Part shown: piece after piece, positions 1,594 through 41,565 of the stretch | Layout of the letters: each line of letters opens with the position of its first letter | How positions within the stretch are numbered: the first letter of the stretch is position 1 | Virus record (IMG/VR): IMGVR_UViG_3300023108_000053 | Span: 1 to 43,054 of that record | Source of the DNA: a virus | Direction: 5' to 3' (one strand) | Length of the DNA stretch: 43,054 nucleotides | Program-made: the position numbers and the translations under genes | The notes under the pieces: generated by a model | The model's database searches: none | The model's input: only the letters and a program-made list of their open reading frames with translations | What the model was told of the DNA's origin: nothing

Positions 1594-1622
1594 ATTATAC
1601 AATACCCAGATTTAGAAGTCAA
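1594..1622 (-). promoter_or_regulatory. Near-consensus sigma70 promoter before tRNA-Arg
   Basis: TTGACT (1617-1622), a 17-base spacer, and TATAAT (1594-1599). The predicted start near 1587 is two bases before the tRNA 5' end. The -35 box contains the TGA stop (1619-1621) of the lysozyme gene. Confidence 0.8.
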
Positions 1623-2206
1623 CTGAGAACTAACTTCCTAGTGTAATCGTATGCAAAGTATTGACGATTACCCTTGATACCCCACCCTAACCAGTAGTAG
1701 GCACCAACCATATATTGATCGATGGATTGACCACGACCTTGAAATTCTGGCAGCACTTTTTGAAATTGATTTTCGTTAATCATATAACGAGTTTGGCATT
1801 CCAGAGTGCTGGGATTACAACCGTATTTTTTAGCGAAGTTTCCTAACCCCAGATAACGCTTCTCAGTGGTCCACTGAATGAGTCCGTAACCACCGCTATG
1901 GCAACTATGGTAAGGAACTCTAGCACCTCCCTCGCATATGTTGGAATGGAAGTTGCTTTCTTGTTTAATGTTTCCCAGGATTGTCGCAAGGGCATTGCGG
2001 TCTGTAATTTTTGTTTGTTCTTGGAGTTGTTTAAGGACATACTTCTCGTTGTCGTTACAGTTGGGACACTTCCAAGATACGGGGATAACTGGCAACTCCA
2101 CTGGAGGAGGTGGCATCACAGTCTTTTCATTGACCGTCGATGCAAATGCTGCGAGTGCAGCACTAGCACCCCACATCAGTGTCAGATTCGTCAGTGGTTT
2201 CATCAT
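1619..2206 (-). CDS. Lysozyme-like protein with N-terminal signal or membrane segment
   Basis: 195 residues. Residues 1-25 (Lys3, then a hydrophobic Leu/Ala-rich run) look like a signal peptide or signal anchor. A proline-rich linker (31-43) and a CPNC motif (47-50) follow. Residues 53-195 resemble the phage tail-lysozyme family (PF18013 type): ATILGNIKQESNF with likely catalytic Glu83, then GGYGLIQWT at 105-113. It would cleave peptidoglycan, either as an exported endolysin or as a virion-associated lysozyme; the signal segment favours export. The start at 2206 overlaps the GIY-YIG gene by 44 bases (2203 is an alternative). A TTGACA-18-TATAAT promoter lies 44-73 bases upstream. Confidence 0.75.
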   Translation of the reverse strand: MMKPLTNLTLMWGASAALAAFASTVNEKTVMPPPPVELPVIPVSWKCPNCNDNEKYVLKQLQEQTKITDRNALATILGNIKQESNFHSNICEGGARVPYHSCHSGGYGLIQWTTEKRYLGLGNFAKKYGCNPSTLECQTRYMINENQFQKVLPEFQGRGQSIDQYMVGAYYWLGWGIKGNRQYFAYDYTRKLVLS

Positions 2207-2651
2207 ATTTAAAATAGTCTTTACGATAATAACGTCCCAAGATATTGCTATTATAGAAGGCAGGAGTGCCGTCTGTCAAGCTCTCGGTCAGTACGTTATT
2301 TAGAAAGAGTTGTCGTGTCTCTTCGTAATTACATTTTCCAACGCTTGTGTGGAGGGAGAGGATTTCTCGGTCAAACGATAACCTCCCATTCCGTTTAACA
2401 TCCTCAGAAAGCTCTGGACAACTGCCGTAGTATTTTTTCCAGTTACTTTCAGATGTAACTCTCCTCCTCCTTGTCCCAGACCCTTGATTAGTAGCTCTAG
2501 GCTTTCGTTTTTGCCAGAAATATTTTCTTCCGATGTACTTTTTACCGTTGGACTTATTGGTAATACAGTAAACAAACCCAAAGTGGCTCCCAATACCGCT
2601 CCCGTCAAAAGGGGTGCCGTGATATATCCAGGGATTTTCATAGTCACACAT
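2163..2651 (-). CDS. GIY-YIG-family endonuclease-like protein
   Basis: 162 residues. GFVYCITN at 25-32 and KYIGRKYF at 38-45 match the paired strands of the GIY-YIG nuclease core, with Arg42 at the usual catalytic arginine position. NYEETRQLF later in the chain may supply the catalytic Glu. A basic stretch (KRKPRATNQGSGTRRRR, about 48-64) suggests nucleic-acid binding. This family includes T4 Seg homing endonucleases, but no separate DNA-binding domain is visible, so it may be a stand-alone nuclease. The gene follows a double terminator and a late-type box at 2678-2685. Confidence 0.65.
   Translation of the reverse strand: MCDYENPWIYHGTPFDGSGIGSHFGFVYCITNKSNGKKYIGRKYFWQKRKPRATNQGSGTRRRRVTSESNWKKYYGSCPELSEDVKRNGRLSFDREILSLHTSVGKCNYEETRQLFLNNVLTESLTDGTPAFYNSNILGRYYRKDYFKYDETTDESDTDVGC
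2250..2279 (-). promoter_or_regulatory. Consensus sigma70 promoter for the lysozyme gene
   Basis: TTGACA (2274-2279), an 18-base spacer, and TATAAT (2250-2255), inside the GIY-YIG coding region. The predicted start near 2243 gives a leader of about 37 bases to the lysozyme ATG. Confidence 0.6.
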
Positions 2652-2660
2652 CCAAGTATT

Positions 2661-2693
2661 AAAAAAGGTTCAGATAATATTTATCCGAACCTT
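2661..2693 (-). terminator. Intrinsic terminator enclosing a late-promoter box
   Basis: Read on the minus strand, AAGGTTC and GATAA pair with TTATC and GAACCTT, with one A/C mismatch and a three-base loop. A run of six T follows. The long stem plus T tract fits a rho-independent terminator. The octamer GATAAATA is part of the loop and 5' arm. Stem symmetry means only weak activity is expected on the plus strand. Confidence 0.75.
2678..2685 (-). promoter_or_regulatory. Possible late promoter inside the terminator loop (GATAAATA)
   Basis: GATAAATA is one base off the T4 late box. With T4 spacing, RNA would start near 2672, inside the 3' arm of the hairpin, so the terminator could not form. The GIY-YIG start codon is at 2651. 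Similar octamers also occur inside genes, so this needs a mapped 5' end. Confidence 0.45.
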
Positions 2694-2702
2694 AGCAAAG
2701 AT

Positions 2703-2731
2703 ATTCTACATAAAAAAAGAGAGGGTGTCAA
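2703..2731 (-). promoter_or_regulatory. Sigma70 promoter with -35 box in a terminator loop
   Basis: TTGACA (2726-2731), a 17-base spacer that includes the terminator T tract, and TAGAAT (2703-2708, 5 of 6). The -35 box lies in the loop of the hairpin at 2718-2740. The predicted start near 2696 is just before the second terminator, so unaided transcription would give an RNA of only about 35 bases. Confidence 0.6.
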
Positions 2732-2741
2732 GCCCTCTCTC
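2711..2741 (-). terminator. Intrinsic terminator after the 742-residue virion gene
   Basis: On the minus strand AGAGAGGG (2740-2733) pairs with CCCTCTCT (2725-2718) around a seven-base loop, followed by seven T. It starts five bases past the stop codon at 2746. Confidence 0.9.
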
Positions 2742-2745
2742 TATT

Positions 2746-4974
2746 TTACTTTTTCTTATTTTTCGCTTCGATCTCTTTGTTCTGTCTCATAATTTCTTTG
2801 ATGCTACCAGAGATGCCAGTGAATCCATCCTTAGAAGGATCAGTCTGTTTCTTGGAATCATCCTTATATCCACCAGCAGCACGGGCAGCAGCACGATTCT
2901 CATCAAGGATGTTAGTGATTTCCTCATCAGTGAGTTCCATCATCACTTCCTCAGCATCATCTAAGGTGCATACATCATACTCCAGCAGGTAGTCCAGAAC
3001 AATATCAAACTCGGTATCTTCACCAAGTCTGTTAGCAGCAGCACCAGAGACGTTAGAGATGCCTCTAGCGGTCTTTCCGACTGCCTTCTTCAGTCCAGAC
3101 TTGATGGCACTACCAACTCTTCTCAGGAGACCTCTCTTGCGGGTTGCAGTGCCACTGGAAGCAGTAGAACCACCACCAGAGGAAGAACCACCACCAGAGG
3201 AAGAACCACCACCAGAGGATCCACCAGAAGAACTGGAAGAAGAAGCAGGCTTGCTGCTACCACCACGAACATCTTTCAGAAGACCATCCAGTTTACCCTT
3301 GGTTCCGTCATCACTAGAAGAACTAGACGATGCGGGTTTCGATTGAGGTTTGGTCTGAGACATTGCTTGTCTCTTCGCTTTGATGCGTCCTGCTTCATAA
3401 CCACCTTTAGCAGCACCAGCGACCTCACCTGCGGCAGCGGCACCCTTAACGGCAGCTTTCTTGGCAAGAGAAGCACCACCTCTGGCAGCAGCACTGACTG
3501 CCTTACCAGCAGTCTGAGCACCCTTCTTAATGGCAGGAGCAGCTCTCTTTGCCATCTCCTTGGCACGTCCAGCAGCAGCACTACCAGCAGACTTGATAGC
3601 AGAACCTGCTTTCTTCAGAGCACCGACAACCTTGTCCCTTCTAATAGAACGGGCATTTGCCTTAGATTGTGCTACGGCAGAAGCATAACGATCTTCCAGA
3701 AGAACATCATCAAAATACTCAACTGCTTCAGTCAGAATACCTTCCTGCTCCATCTCCTCAAAGATGTCAAAGGCAAAGTGCAGCAGTTCCTCTTCGGTCA
3801 GTTCGTCAAAGATAGCATCGTTCAACAGATGATCAATGTCGAACGCTTCTTTCTTACTGTTACCCCAGTTGTCAGCACCCTTCTTACGGCACTGAACCAG
3901 ACGACCAGAAGCATATGCAGAAGGCCAAACCTTTGCACTTGCTTTTACCTTATGGTAGCAAGCATCTTTCTTACCCTCTTCCTCAACCTGCTCTACGTCT
4001 TCTTTGACAGAGGGTGCCATAACACCCATCTTTTTATCATACTTGACGTTGGTTTTCTTTGCTGGTTTAGCATCTTTGATGCTAGGAGCACCCGTCATGT
4101 CTGCTTCAGAGACAGTTTCTTCTTTGTAGTTGTCTCTTGCTTTCTCATCTGCCATCTTGGAGAAACGCTCTTTCTCTTTCTGACTAGAAATAGCACTTAC
4201 AATTTTGGCAGACTTGGTTTGTGCTTCCTCTTTCTTTTTGCCTTTTGAAGCAAGAGAAGTGCGTGCCAGGTTTCCAGCACGGCGATACATTGCTGTTTCT
4301 TTTTTCTTGTCAATTGCCTTGTAACCTTCTTCAACTTCAGTCTCTTCAGCAGTCGGTTGCTGTTCTGATTTCTTTTTCATTGCGTTGGCAGCAAGTGCCT
4401 TAGCACCCATCTTAGCAGCACCCAGTGCTACTTTGGCAACAACAGGAGCAATCTCATCAACCTGCTCAACTTCTTCAGTCTGAGATACCTTGCCCTTCAG
4501 GGAAGCGTCGATGGCACCACTACCACCCTTTGCTTTCTTCTCGGAACCTCTAGGGTTGTATTCACCAGCAGCACCTTCCTTATCCTTTTCAGGTGCCTTG
4601 CTACCAGGCTTCAGATAGGTGGCATTGTTCTTAGAATACTCAAGCAGTTTGAGAGCAATAGCAGCTGCCTGTCTCTTCTCACCAGACAGAGCATTCTCAC
4701 TCAGTCTTGGATTGACTGCCTTCAGTGCAATCTTAAACTGGGTGGCAAATGTTTCGTCATCAAACATATTGGCAAGTGCCTGTTCAGGCAATGCCTCTAC
4801 AATATTATCTACTTCTCTAGCATTGTTAGAGACATATCCCTCATCAATAAGGAATTTTGAAATATTCAAAAATGCTTCACAGATCTCCTCGTTCATAGCA
4901 GAGAGTCTCTTGGCATAGAATGACTCTCTACGAACTAGTTGATAAAATCTTTGGTTATAATCGTTAGGCGACAT
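2746..4974 (-). CDS. Large internal-virion-type protein with DUF5872 and histone-H1-like segments
   Basis: 742 residues. Residues 1-125 are helical. Residues 160-335 are charged and low-complexity, with repeated acidic patches (EEVEQVDE, ETEVEEG, EDVEQVEEE). Residues 337-371 (CYHKVKASAKVWPSAYASGR, then CRKKGADNWGN) match the DUF5872 signature. Residues 378-412 and 656-692 are two similar acidic helical units. Residues 443-536 are Ala/Lys/Gly-rich like the histone H1 tail. Residues 547-612 are a Ser/Gly linker. It is probably a DNA-binding protein packaged in, or scaffolding, the head. AGGGA lies just before the ATG, and an AATAAATA late-type box lies 29 bases upstream. Confidence 0.7.
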   Translation of the reverse strand: MSPNDYNQRFYQLVRRESFYAKRLSAMNEEICEAFLNISKFLIDEGYVSNNAREVDNIVEALPEQALANMFDDETFATQFKIALKAVNPRLSENALSGEKRQAAAIALKLLEYSKNNATYLKPGSKAPEKDKEGAAGEYNPRGSEKKAKGGSGAIDASLKGKVSQTEEVEQVDEIAPVVAKVALGAAKMGAKALAANAMKKKSEQQPTAEETEVEEGYKAIDKKKETAMYRRAGNLARTSLASKGKKKEEAQTKSAKIVSAISSQKEKERFSKMADEKARDNYKEETVSEADMTGAPSIKDAKPAKKTNVKYDKKMGVMAPSVKEDVEQVEEEGKKDACYHKVKASAKVWPSAYASGRLVQCRKKGADNWGNSKKEAFDIDHLLNDAIFDELTEEELLHFAFDIFEEMEQEGILTEAVEYFDDVLLEDRYASAVAQSKANARSIRRDKVVGALKKAGSAIKSAGSAAAGRAKEMAKRAAPAIKKGAQTAGKAVSAAARGGASLAKKAAVKGAAAAGEVAGAAKGGYEAGRIKAKRQAMSQTKPQSKPASSSSSSDDGTKGKLDGLLKDVRGGSSKPASSSSSSGGSSGGGSSSGGGSSSGGGSTASSGTATRKRGLLRRVGSAIKSGLKKAVGKTARGISNVSGAAANRLGEDTEFDIVLDYLLEYDVCTLDDAEEVMMELTDEEITNILDENRAAARAAGGYKDDSKKQTDPSKDGFTGISGSIKEIMRQNKEIEAKNKKK

Positions 4975-5491: not shown

Positions 5492-6964
5492 TTATTTATA
5501 GATGGTGCTTTGCAAATACTCAATTGTCGTAGGTTGTTTCTCTAAAAATTCACAAAGATTCTTGTACCTATTAATCCATCTACTCTTTTTAACATTCATA
5601 TCTTTCTTAATCGCAGGACCATATCTATCAATCAAATCCTTTCTCATCTCTTCTCTGTCATATCCAAGCGGTAATACCTGAGCACCGAAAGCAATGTAGG
5701 GAAGACCTGTGAAGATAGTCTTCCATCCACCCTGTAAGAAGAAGTCACTTACTTCATATTCTTTTTCTTCTGTAACGTACTTCCAATAAGGTGTATTATT
5801 TCTACTAGAGCAATAGTAATGTGCCGCTACAAAACCAGACATGCCAGTGAGAACACCCTTACATACCTGATTCAAGGAATCTCTATCTACAGATCCTATG
5901 ATACCACCTCTCCTAGTTAATACCGCAATCAAATGCTTAATCACTTCATGAGTTGTAAGTAGTCCAGTTGACTCAAGTGGTTCTAGGAATCCATAAGATA
6001 GTCCGATGGCAAGAACATTTTTATGCCATGCCTTTTCATGAATGCCGTGTCGAAAAGTAATGTGTCTACACTCTACCTCTTCCCCAATGTGATCTTTAAA
6101 CTCTCTTTCCGCTTCTGTGGGTGTAAGGAACTTATCAGAATACACATACCCCTTACCCATTCTCGACCACAGGGGAGTTGTCCATACCCAACCACTACTT
6201 AATCCATAACAGTTTGTATAATTTTTAAGTTCTTCCTCTTTGTTTTTATAATCAACTCTTGCTACCACAGCACGATTATTAATTAGATTATCAAACTCAT
6301 TGAACTCTACACCCAAAGATCTTTCTAAAAGTAAAGACTTAAATCCAGTGCAATCAATATAAAGATCTGCTTCAATCACTCCAGATGGAGTAGTCAGACA
6401 TTCAATACCACGAGTATTCAATACTGGTTTTACATCAGCGATAATATGTTCTATTCTACCAACACATATTCTATCCCTCAACCAATTGCCAAACTTGGTT
6501 GCATCTAGATGATAAGCAGTATGTTTTATAATGCGATCAAACAATTTGTTTGATTCTGCAACTGTAGTCATATCATTGTAATATTTTTGAAAGCTTAGTG
6601 GATGACTAAACTCATCATGAAAACATGACAGCGCAAAAATATCATCAAATCCATTCTGTTTATCACCCAGTTCTACTGGACCGAATGGATAATGAACCGT
6701 TTTATCACTATAGAAAAAATTGTCAAATCCTATCGAAGTTTTATAGGTGGCATCACATTCTGCCATCCAGTCTTCATCAGATATTCCAATGAAGTCTAGA
6801 AAAGTACGGAACTGCTCAAGGGTAGATTCCCCAACACCAATAGTAGGGACAGTATCTGACTCTACTAAAGTTACTTTTATGTTGGGAACACGTTGAACTA
6901 AAGCAGCGGCAGTCAACCACCCAGAGGTGCCACCTCCGACGATGCAAATTTTTTCAACTTTCAT
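5492..6964 (-). CDS. Flavin-dependent tryptophan-halogenase-like protein
   Basis: 490 residues, near full length for the family. GGGTSG at 10-15 is the FAD-binding loop. Lys75 in TYKTSIGF aligns with the lysine that carries the HOCl/chloramine intermediate in PrnA. EPLESTGL places Glu331 at the position of PrnA Glu346. The WxWxIP signature is partly kept as GWVWTTPL (258-265), with Thr in place of Ile. Known members chlorinate or brominate tryptophan; similar genes occur in T4-like cyanophages, where the substrate is unknown. No flavin reductase partner is seen nearby. It is the last gene of the primase-nrdA-nrdB group, overlapping the preceding small gene by four bases. Confidence 0.85.
   Translation of the reverse strand: MKVEKICIVGGGTSGWLTAAALVQRVPNIKVTLVESDTVPTIGVGESTLEQFRTFLDFIGISDEDWMAECDATYKTSIGFDNFFYSDKTVHYPFGPVELGDKQNGFDDIFALSCFHDEFSHPLSFQKYYNDMTTVAESNKLFDRIIKHTAYHLDATKFGNWLRDRICVGRIEHIIADVKPVLNTRGIECLTTPSGVIEADLYIDCTGFKSLLLERSLGVEFNEFDNLINNRAVVARVDYKNKEEELKNYTNCYGLSSGWVWTTPLWSRMGKGYVYSDKFLTPTEAEREFKDHIGEEVECRHITFRHGIHEKAWHKNVLAIGLSYGFLEPLESTGLLTTHEVIKHLIAVLTRRGGIIGSVDRDSLNQVCKGVLTGMSGFVAAHYYCSSRNNTPYWKYVTEEKEYEVSDFFLQGGWKTIFTGLPYIAFGAQVLPLGYDREEMRKDLIDRYGPAIKKDMNVKKSRWINRYKNLCEFLEKQPTTIEYLQSTIYK
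5493..5500 (-). promoter_or_regulatory. T4-type late promoter (TATAAATA)
   Basis: A perfect T4 late box 25 bases before the thermonuclease start codon. It coincides with the last codons of the halogenase gene (TAT AAA TAA). Confidence 0.6.
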
Positions 6965-40322: not shown

Positions 40323-40528
40323 TCTGCGTGATGTGCTTTCAGATTGGGGTCAGGATTACTTTCTGTTCTAGGTTCCTTCTTCTTAATAACGATAAACTTA
40401 TCAGCAGCGAATGTTCCAGCAATCTTAAATTCAAGTTCGGTGCCGTCTTCCCAGATTTCTTCACCACTCTTCTTTCGCATATCAAGAAGGCACTCAAGTT
40501 CTTTAATGATCTCAGGTGTAATTTTCAT
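40319..40528 (-). CDS. Small protein between gp55 and gp47
   Basis: 69 residues: MKITPEIIKELECLLDMRKK, then GTELEFKIAGTFAADKFIVI and a polar tail ending AHHAE. An alpha-then-beta layout. Overlaps the gp55 stop and the gp47 start by four bases each. Function unknown. Confidence 0.72.
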   Translation of the reverse strand: MKITPEIIKELECLLDMRKKSGEEIWEDGTELEFKIAGTFAADKFIVIKKKEPRTESNPDPNLKAHHAE

Positions 40529-41055
40529 TGACGGTTCAGTTTGTAGTGAATCTTTTCTTTGATACTATTATAGTCTGAAGAGGATCCGTTTGCACCATCC
40601 TCAACAACCATCACCTGATCATATCCAGTCTTTTCGATGATCTTGGTTTTAATTTCTAGTTGCTTCTTTTCTTTTTGAATTCGACGTAAGAAGGCATAGT
40701 GAATGATTTGAGTGAAGTAAGCAAAGGGGTTAGAAGATTTTGCAGGGTCAAAATTATGAATATACTGAACACAATTTTCGATGCCATCAGAGATCATGTC
40801 CTCACGAAACATGTAATTGACAAAGTTTGGTTTATACGACAAGTGTGTAGCAATCTTTAAGAAACACTCACCAAGATAATTGGTAATCGTTGGTTTTCCT
40901 TCCCATTTCTTTGCACGCTCTTCTTTCGGTTGCTCTTTCAGATCTTTTCCAAACTTCTTCTGATAAGAGGTTTCAACCTTCTTTCTGTAAACAACAAGTG
41001 CCTCTAGCAGTTCTTTGTTGTTTACATAATGTTCTGATCTTTCTCGTGTTGGCAT
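40525..41055 (-). CDS. 55: Late-transcription sigma factor (T4 gp55-like)
   Basis: 176 residues. KPNFVNYMFREDMISDGIEN and NPFAYFTQIIHYAFLRRIQK match the sigma region 2-like core of gp55, which directs RNA polymerase to TATAAATA-type late promoters together with the gp45 clamp. Several such boxes are in this window. A TATAAT box lies 34 bases upstream. Starts MPTRERSEHYVNNKELLEAL. Confidence 0.93.
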   Translation of the reverse strand: MPTRERSEHYVNNKELLEALVVYRKKVETSYQKKFGKDLKEQPKEERAKKWEGKPTITNYLGECFLKIATHLSYKPNFVNYMFREDMISDGIENCVQYIHNFDPAKSSNPFAYFTQIIHYAFLRRIQKEKKQLEIKTKIIEKTGYDQVMVVEDGANGSSSDYNSIKEKIHYKLNRQ

Positions 41056-41094: not shown

Positions 41095-41118
41095 ACACAA
41101 ATATACCGCTTGACACAA

Positions 41119-41565
41119 TCACTTTTCTTCAGTAGAATCACCCTTGTGGTGGTTGTCCGAGACATCTAGCTTATATATTTCTTCTAAACTAATTCTAGCT
41201 TCTGCAACAGTTCCTAGATAACCCATTTTTTTATCTGGAGTTACCTGACCATTTTCATCTAGATCATCATCGTCGTCTAGAGTATCATCAAGGAACTTTT
41301 TGTAAAATTTTATAATTTCTTTGTTGGTTATTTCAGTGATAGTAATCACTTTATCCATGTTAATTGTATAAACATCTTCATCTGGTATCTTCATCCAGGG
41401 TTCTACTTTGACACCAGAATGAAGTCCTCTCTTGATAATTTTCATTATCACTGGGTTGCAGAGAATGACAACGCTATTGCCTTCTTTGTCTTTATCCATT
41501 GATGCAATTGAGAAGATTTCTTCTCCTGTCACCAATTTTAATACGCAGTAGAATTCATCTGTCAT
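41119..41565 (-). CDS. Sm-like small protein, fourth copy with acidic tail
   Basis: 148 residues. FYCVLKLVTGEEIFSIASMD and NSVVILCNPVIMKIIKR match the beta pattern of the three smaller relatives; VEPWMKIPDEDVYTINMDKV parallels the LESWIALSADKKM segment of the copy at 25804-26145. The acidic run DDTLDDDDDLDENGQ separates a short C-terminal part. It overlaps uvsW by 11 bases. Confidence 0.65.
   Translation of the reverse strand: MTDEFYCVLKLVTGEEIFSIASMDKDKEGNSVVILCNPVIMKIIKRGLHSGVKVEPWMKIPDEDVYTINMDKVITITEITNKEIIKFYKKFLDDTLDDDDDLDENGQVTPDKKMGYLGTVAEARISLEEIYKLDVSDNHHKGDSTEEK

Follow-up and report, generated by a model that had tools for sequence, protein, structure and literature searches.

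Promoter-early stem-loop (PeSL) cassettes of T4-type phages consist of a sigma70-like promoter fused to a terminator stem-loop; they mediate recombination, recur in several copies per genome and are not known to have a nested late promoter or a second hairpin. In another kind of leader, found at I-TevI, segB and gene e of T4 and at mobE of Aeh1, a hairpin at the ribosome site has a late promoter within its 5' arm (PMC2988022, PMC3014915). T4 applies this early-off/late-on logic to the endonuclease I-TevI and, separately, to the lysozyme gene e (PMC2988022, PMC3014915). In RB49, S-PM2 and Syn9, tandem early and late promoters are a proposed substitute for the middle mode, and cyanomyoviruses lack MotA and Asi, which serve that mode in T4 (PMC2984593).

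Here we describe a leader in a stretch of viral DNA of 43,054 nucleotides, hereafter the window, whose closest publicly available relatives are T4-like cyanophages and which is itself a fragment of a T4-like cyanophage. The 95 bases between a gene of 742 amino acids and a GIY-YIG gene, read on the minus strand, contain two hairpins, an early promoter and a late box. The initial annotation, made from the sequence alone, had described the hairpins, the promoter and the nested late box, and our analysis located each of them on the minus strand where it had been placed:

2746 to 4974, minus strand: upstream gene, 742 amino acids, ended by hairpin 1
2716 to 2742, minus strand: hairpin 1, terminator of the upstream gene; the loop CTTGACA includes the -35 box and a T-run follows
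2703 to 2731, minus strand: early sigma70-type promoter (TTGACA at 2731-2726, spacer of 17, TAGAAT at 2708-2703), 11 of 12 positions matching, conserved in relatives; predicted start near 2696
2688 to 2699, minus strand: early leader motif TTTGCTAAGGTT / TTTGYTAAGGTT, conserved, frequently with GA after it, and spanning the predicted early start
2665 to 2693, minus strand: hairpin 2, 13-bp stem with ATA loop, kept in L268, L270, L273, L274, L277 and L279
2678 to 2685, minus strand: late promoter box GATAAATA, nested in hairpin 2, where it contributes to the 5' arm and the loop; predicted start at 2672
2661 to 2666, minus strand: T6 run forming the U-tract of hairpin 2; only the window lineage and L023/L261 have it intact, the latter without the late box
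2163 to 2651, minus strand: SegE-like GIY-YIG endonuclease gene (PF19835, E 4e-51), ATG at 2651
1619 to 2206, minus strand: lysozyme-like gene (PF18013, E 4e-14), probably second in the unit; it overlaps the GIY-YIG gene at the latter's end

With moderate confidence, we propose that this leader is a cis-acting early-off/late-on switch of a T4-like cyanophage, in which blocking in the window occurs by termination. Hairpin 1 would stop transcription of the upstream gene and provide the -35 box of the early sigma70 promoter. The early RNA, starting near 2696, would have the complete hairpin 2 at its 5' end, and hairpin 2 with its U6 tract would stop this RNA at about 36 nt; few early polymerases would get through to the SegE-like GIY-YIG gene and the lysozyme-like gene. 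At a later stage, polymerase carrying the gp55-type sigma factor would initiate at 2672 from the GATAAATA box within hairpin 2, and the late RNA, having the 3' arm only, would form no hairpin and read into both genes. The observations behind this proposal are the sequence, its folds and a conserved plan of promoter, late box and hairpin, from which we infer the start sites, the termination, the timing and the effect on the two genes. As a leader class, early-off/late-on is well founded; termination as the putative blocking step is lineage-specific and supported for the window lineage only.

The proposed switch resembles the T4 and Aeh1 leaders in that an inhibitory hairpin of the early RNA contains the late start in its 5' arm and so is absent from the late RNA, and in that the genes are homing endonucleases or lysozyme, as in the window. 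The two differ in what the hairpin does: theirs hides the ribosome site, whereas that of the window is predicted to act as a terminator and does not enclose the start codon. Furthermore, the early RNA of the T4-type leaders, which spans a gene whose protein is made late only, generally comes from further upstream, whereas the early promoter of the window is about 25 bases before the late start. Predicted accessibility indicates sequestration of the ribosome site or start codon in ATAGCTC-type relatives and none in the window. In its proposed working, the window leader is thus comparable to the T4 leader switch; it falls outside the strict type, because its hairpin leaves the ribosome site uncovered. 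Compared with PeSL cassettes, hairpin 1 and the early promoter form a similar unit, with an 11/12 promoter match and TTGACA in the terminator loop, whereas the nested late promoter and the second hairpin are features of the window that PeSLs are not known to have. RB49, S-PM2 and Syn9 likewise have an early and a late promoter before one gene; however, both promoters are proposed there for middle expression, and a hairpin that silences the early RNA is undescribed (PMC2984593). The logic is therefore already known from T4 and Aeh1, and blocking by termination is the new twist here. The literature that we searched, which was incomplete, described neither late promoters placed within terminators nor the present family of cyanophage leaders.

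The centroid structure of the leader consists of exactly hairpins 1 and 2, with a minimum free energy of -35.9 against -19.6 ± 3.1 for shuffled sequences (z -5.2; 0 of 200 as low). When the 3' arm of hairpin 2 was randomly re-ordered, a fraction of 5e-6 formed all 13 pairs. The GATAAATATTATC core followed by a T-run was present in 70 database stretches, among which the 13-bp stem occurs only in the window lineage. A chance origin of the fold was rejected on these three grounds. Since the T4 late box occupies -13 to -6 (PMC1524935), the late start is predicted at 2672, 3' of the whole 5' arm, and hence the late RNA would be without that arm, which bears out this element of the initial annotation. 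The early leader is predicted to fold with -17.6 kcal/mol and the late leader with -2.5. The stem of hairpin 2 ends 13 bases before the ATG of the GIY-YIG gene, and the predicted accessibility of the start codon is 0.41 in the early and 0.47 in the late RNA; sequestration of the start codon in the window itself was dismissed on account of these nearly equal values. An Rfam scan found only two tRNAs and matched no known RNA family to the leader.

Late transcription of the GIY-YIG gene is the best-supported part of the proposal, because the late box [AC]TAAATA stands upstream of orthologous GIY-YIG genes in the sense direction in 37 of 46 distinct regions and in the antisense direction in none, and because five of the 11 ATAAATA boxes of the window, including GATAAATA, lie 33-41 bases before the start of an open reading frame. 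All 11 boxes are on the minus strand, and their number in the window alone is no excess over chance. The box is a predicted promoter of the T4 late type, with NATAAATA ahead of late genes and a phage gp55-type sigma factor; a gp55-like late sigma factor gene is present in the window at 40525-41055. The fetched loci contained 334 distinct late-box contexts; of these, just the window lineage and its closest relatives place the box within a hairpin of at least 12 bp with at least three G-C pairs, and the addition of an uninterrupted T-run restricts this to the window lineage.

For the early promoter, the pattern TAGARTnnnTTTGYTAAGGTT was found in at least 119 IMG/VR stretches, ahead of several unrelated genes. 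Of the 78 distinct promoters whose -35 box includes TTGAC, 21 hold it in a terminator loop, compared with 0.4% when the flanks are shuffled, and 17 different hairpins with a TTGAC loop were found among the relatives; the stem therefore varies while the loop is constant. Judged from these sequences, hairpin 1 and the sigma70 promoter are a recurring composite unit, of which the 43-kb fragment holds one, with the window leader, and other cyanophage contigs hold many. The share of loci with the early promoter (57 of 58) stems from locus selection, as loci were gathered partly via patterns containing it, and its frequency is therefore not evidence.

The TTTGYTAAGGTT motif lies downstream of the -10 box ahead of many unrelated cyanophage genes (the window and L152-L265), and its conservation there exceeds the need of a promoter alone. 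A plus-strand sigma70-like promoter at 41110-41138 (TTGACA, 17, TAGAAT) points antisense into the 3' end of the minus-strand gene 41119-41565, which is PHROG 471 and adjoins the gp55-like gene. Promoters with the TTTGYTAAGGTT leader are likewise antisense to genes with a similar C-terminus in at least 13 further contigs (among them L166, L173, L176, L182 and L224), and the promoter at 41110-41138 possibly gives a conserved early antisense RNA. In L162, L169, L194 and L216, another terminator-like hairpin and a second TATAAT-like site lie no more than about 75 bases after the early promoter and ahead of a helicase-like gene (LRPHQ), an arrangement that suggests stacked promoter/terminator units.

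The alignment across related cyanophages that the initial annotation had proposed revealed a conserved plan of promoter, late box and hairpin with differing hairpins. The early promoter is common to four leader types, A to D. Type A comprises the window lineage and the six relatives listed above for hairpin 2, with a 12-13-bp hairpin and the late box at its tip. Relative to the window, one-sided changes in these six keep the pairs (G-C to G-U, G-U to A-U); the innermost pair is lost in all six and one outer pair in L268. In type B (L009/L020), CCAAGT...ACTTGG or CAAAGT...ACTTTG lies between the late box and the ATG, just ahead of the latter, a paired change noted by eye; the minimum-energy fold contains the stem in L009 and not in L020. 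Type C, found in many contigs and in the cultured phage S-SKS1, has the late box and then ATAGCTCATA...TATGAGCTAT, with the start codon within the 3' arm. Type D (L023/L261) has a terminator hairpin at the same place, with a different and fully paired inner stem and T6, and is without the late box.

In type C, the arms ATAGCTCATA/TATGAGCTAT and their variants pair at eight or more of 10 positions in 37 of 57 distinct stretches. Most leaders with a perfect stem show a predicted start-codon accessibility near 0 in the early RNA and 0.1-0.7 in the late RNA, whereas in type A it hardly changes. Among 37 distinct arm pairs, the paired fraction is 0.719 against 0.670 ± 0.015 with shuffled partners (0 of 2000 as high), a comparison in which relatedness is not controlled. 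This covariation is modest, and strong covariation in the start-codon hairpins was not found in alignment A2, where 55 of 500 shuffles were as high. The type C case is one of conserved complementarity, and covariation is weak.

In the three hairpin designs A to C, the late box is in, or just 5' of, the 5' arm of the early-RNA hairpin, and the late RNA would lose all or about half of this arm because the predicted late start lies within or after it. In most relatives, the early-RNA hairpin covers the start codon, as it does at I-TevI, segB and gene e of T4. The simplest reading is that the types share one early-off/late-on leader and differ in a blocking step that has moved: the start region may be hidden (B and C), the hairpin may stand beside the start (most of A), or, as we infer for the window lineage, transcription may terminate. 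When the leader was compared with public phages by BLAST, the full plan was found only in S-SKS1, with a decayed version in S-SRM01. The window lineage consists of a few contigs sharing one leader; L004 differs from the window at 17 of 489 coding bases and is identical in 94 intergenic bases. Since the leaders are identical, the combination of U-tract and late box was counted as one evolutionary event.

Whether the hairpin blocks by termination depends on the strength of the terminator, which we scored with a formula of the d'Aubenton-Carafa form. Hairpin 1 scores 29.7 and hairpin 2 scores 21.9, and hairpin 2, with 13 bp, four G-C pairs and T6, has the form of an intrinsic terminator. With the same formula, the type D hairpin scores 26, and the type A relatives score from -0.7 (L279, borderline) to -13.9, all of the others being negative. 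The nearest type A relatives are predicted to be non-terminating because their U-tract is broken or absent, although they keep the hairpin and the late box. Late box, hairpin and strong U-tract thus occur together in the window lineage only. As the terminator of type D is without the late box, a late-on switch of the window kind is not possible there. The initial annotation had held that one piece of DNA blocks early and permits late transcription; the geometry fits, orthologues keep the logic with other hairpins, and T4 and Aeh1 offer an established precedent at the level of translation, whereas support for the termination block is limited to the window lineage.

The U-tract data also feed a different reading, in which the early RNA reads through, the T6 is incidental, and the hairpin, absent from the late RNA, acts near the start region by hindering ribosomes or by protecting the 5' end of the early RNA. 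Most relatives with a nested late box have no working U-tract, the start codon lies inside the hairpin in the ATAGCTC type, and the T4-family precedents work on translation. In seg43 of Aeromonas phage 25, moreover, the hairpin is just upstream of the ribosome site and leaves it uncovered (PMC2988022), which favours this reading. However, the start codon of the window is similarly accessible early and late, and hairpin 2 is rated a strong terminator by its score; we consider an action on translation or stability unlikely, while giving it real weight. Less probable still is a pair of stacked terminators that shields the GIY-YIG gene against the upstream operon; the early promoter between them would be a leftover PeSL, and the late box an ordinary late promoter whose overlap with hairpin 2 is incidental. 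Hairpin 1 with its promoter is indeed PeSL-like and widely recurring, and L023/L261 have promoter and then terminator with no late box; however, the nesting of box and hairpin persists in type A relatives whose hairpin is no terminator, and two further hairpin designs also put the late box at the 5' arm. The initial annotation had also suggested that the short early RNA could be functional. A reading in which this product of about 36 nt acts as a small RNA, with the late box serving the gene independently, could draw on the strong promoter immediately before a terminator, but it is very improbable and found no support, since Rfam gave no match, the hairpin sequence varies by lineage and most relatives are predicted not to terminate there.

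Returning to termination within an early-off/late-on switch, we tentatively suggest, with rather less confidence than for the switch itself, that a late promoter within an intrinsic terminator makes an element of about 30 bases that could halt early and start late transcription with no dedicated regulator. It would be a transcription-level version of the T4-type switch. Cyanophages may have several interchangeable hairpin designs for silencing the SegE-lysozyme unit until late, and this element would be one of them. For cyanomyoviruses, whose gene timing works without MotA and Asi, a cis element needing a sigma change alone would explain one unit, and this unit includes a probable lysis gene. 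The relatives represent natural variants of one switch before one gene (terminator, start-codon hairpin, hairpin beside the start), and the switch is therefore directly testable; the cultured S-SKS1 bears the start-codon version.

As for the target, the initial annotation had named the GIY-YIG gene; however, the switch probably serves a two-gene unit rather than this gene alone, because the GIY-YIG and lysozyme-like genes are near neighbours in most related contigs examined. The match to Pfam SegE_GIY-YIG (PF19835) is to the free-standing T4 endonuclease type. Differing ends of the upstream gene had raised the suspicion of a mobile promoter-plus-endonuclease cassette at the locus; this was dropped because the order of upstream gene, GIY-YIG gene and lysozyme-like gene is kept in window-type and L023-type relatives. 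A sigma70-like site inside the GIY-YIG gene (2279-2250, minus strand; TTGACA, 18, TATAAT; 12/12 match) lies upstream of the lysozyme-like gene, and TTGAC[AG] and/or TATAAT is retained in most relatives examined. It might allow early transcription of the lysozyme-like gene regardless of the switch, which counts against our preferred explanation; T4 endonuclease genes are known to contain internal promoters (PMC2988022).

PHROGs (PHROG 447) and many cyanophage records call the SegE-like GIY-YIG gene 'NAD synthetase', which looks like a propagated misannotation. The window also contains a tryptophan halogenase-like gene at 5492-6964 on the minus strand (PF04820, 1e-90).
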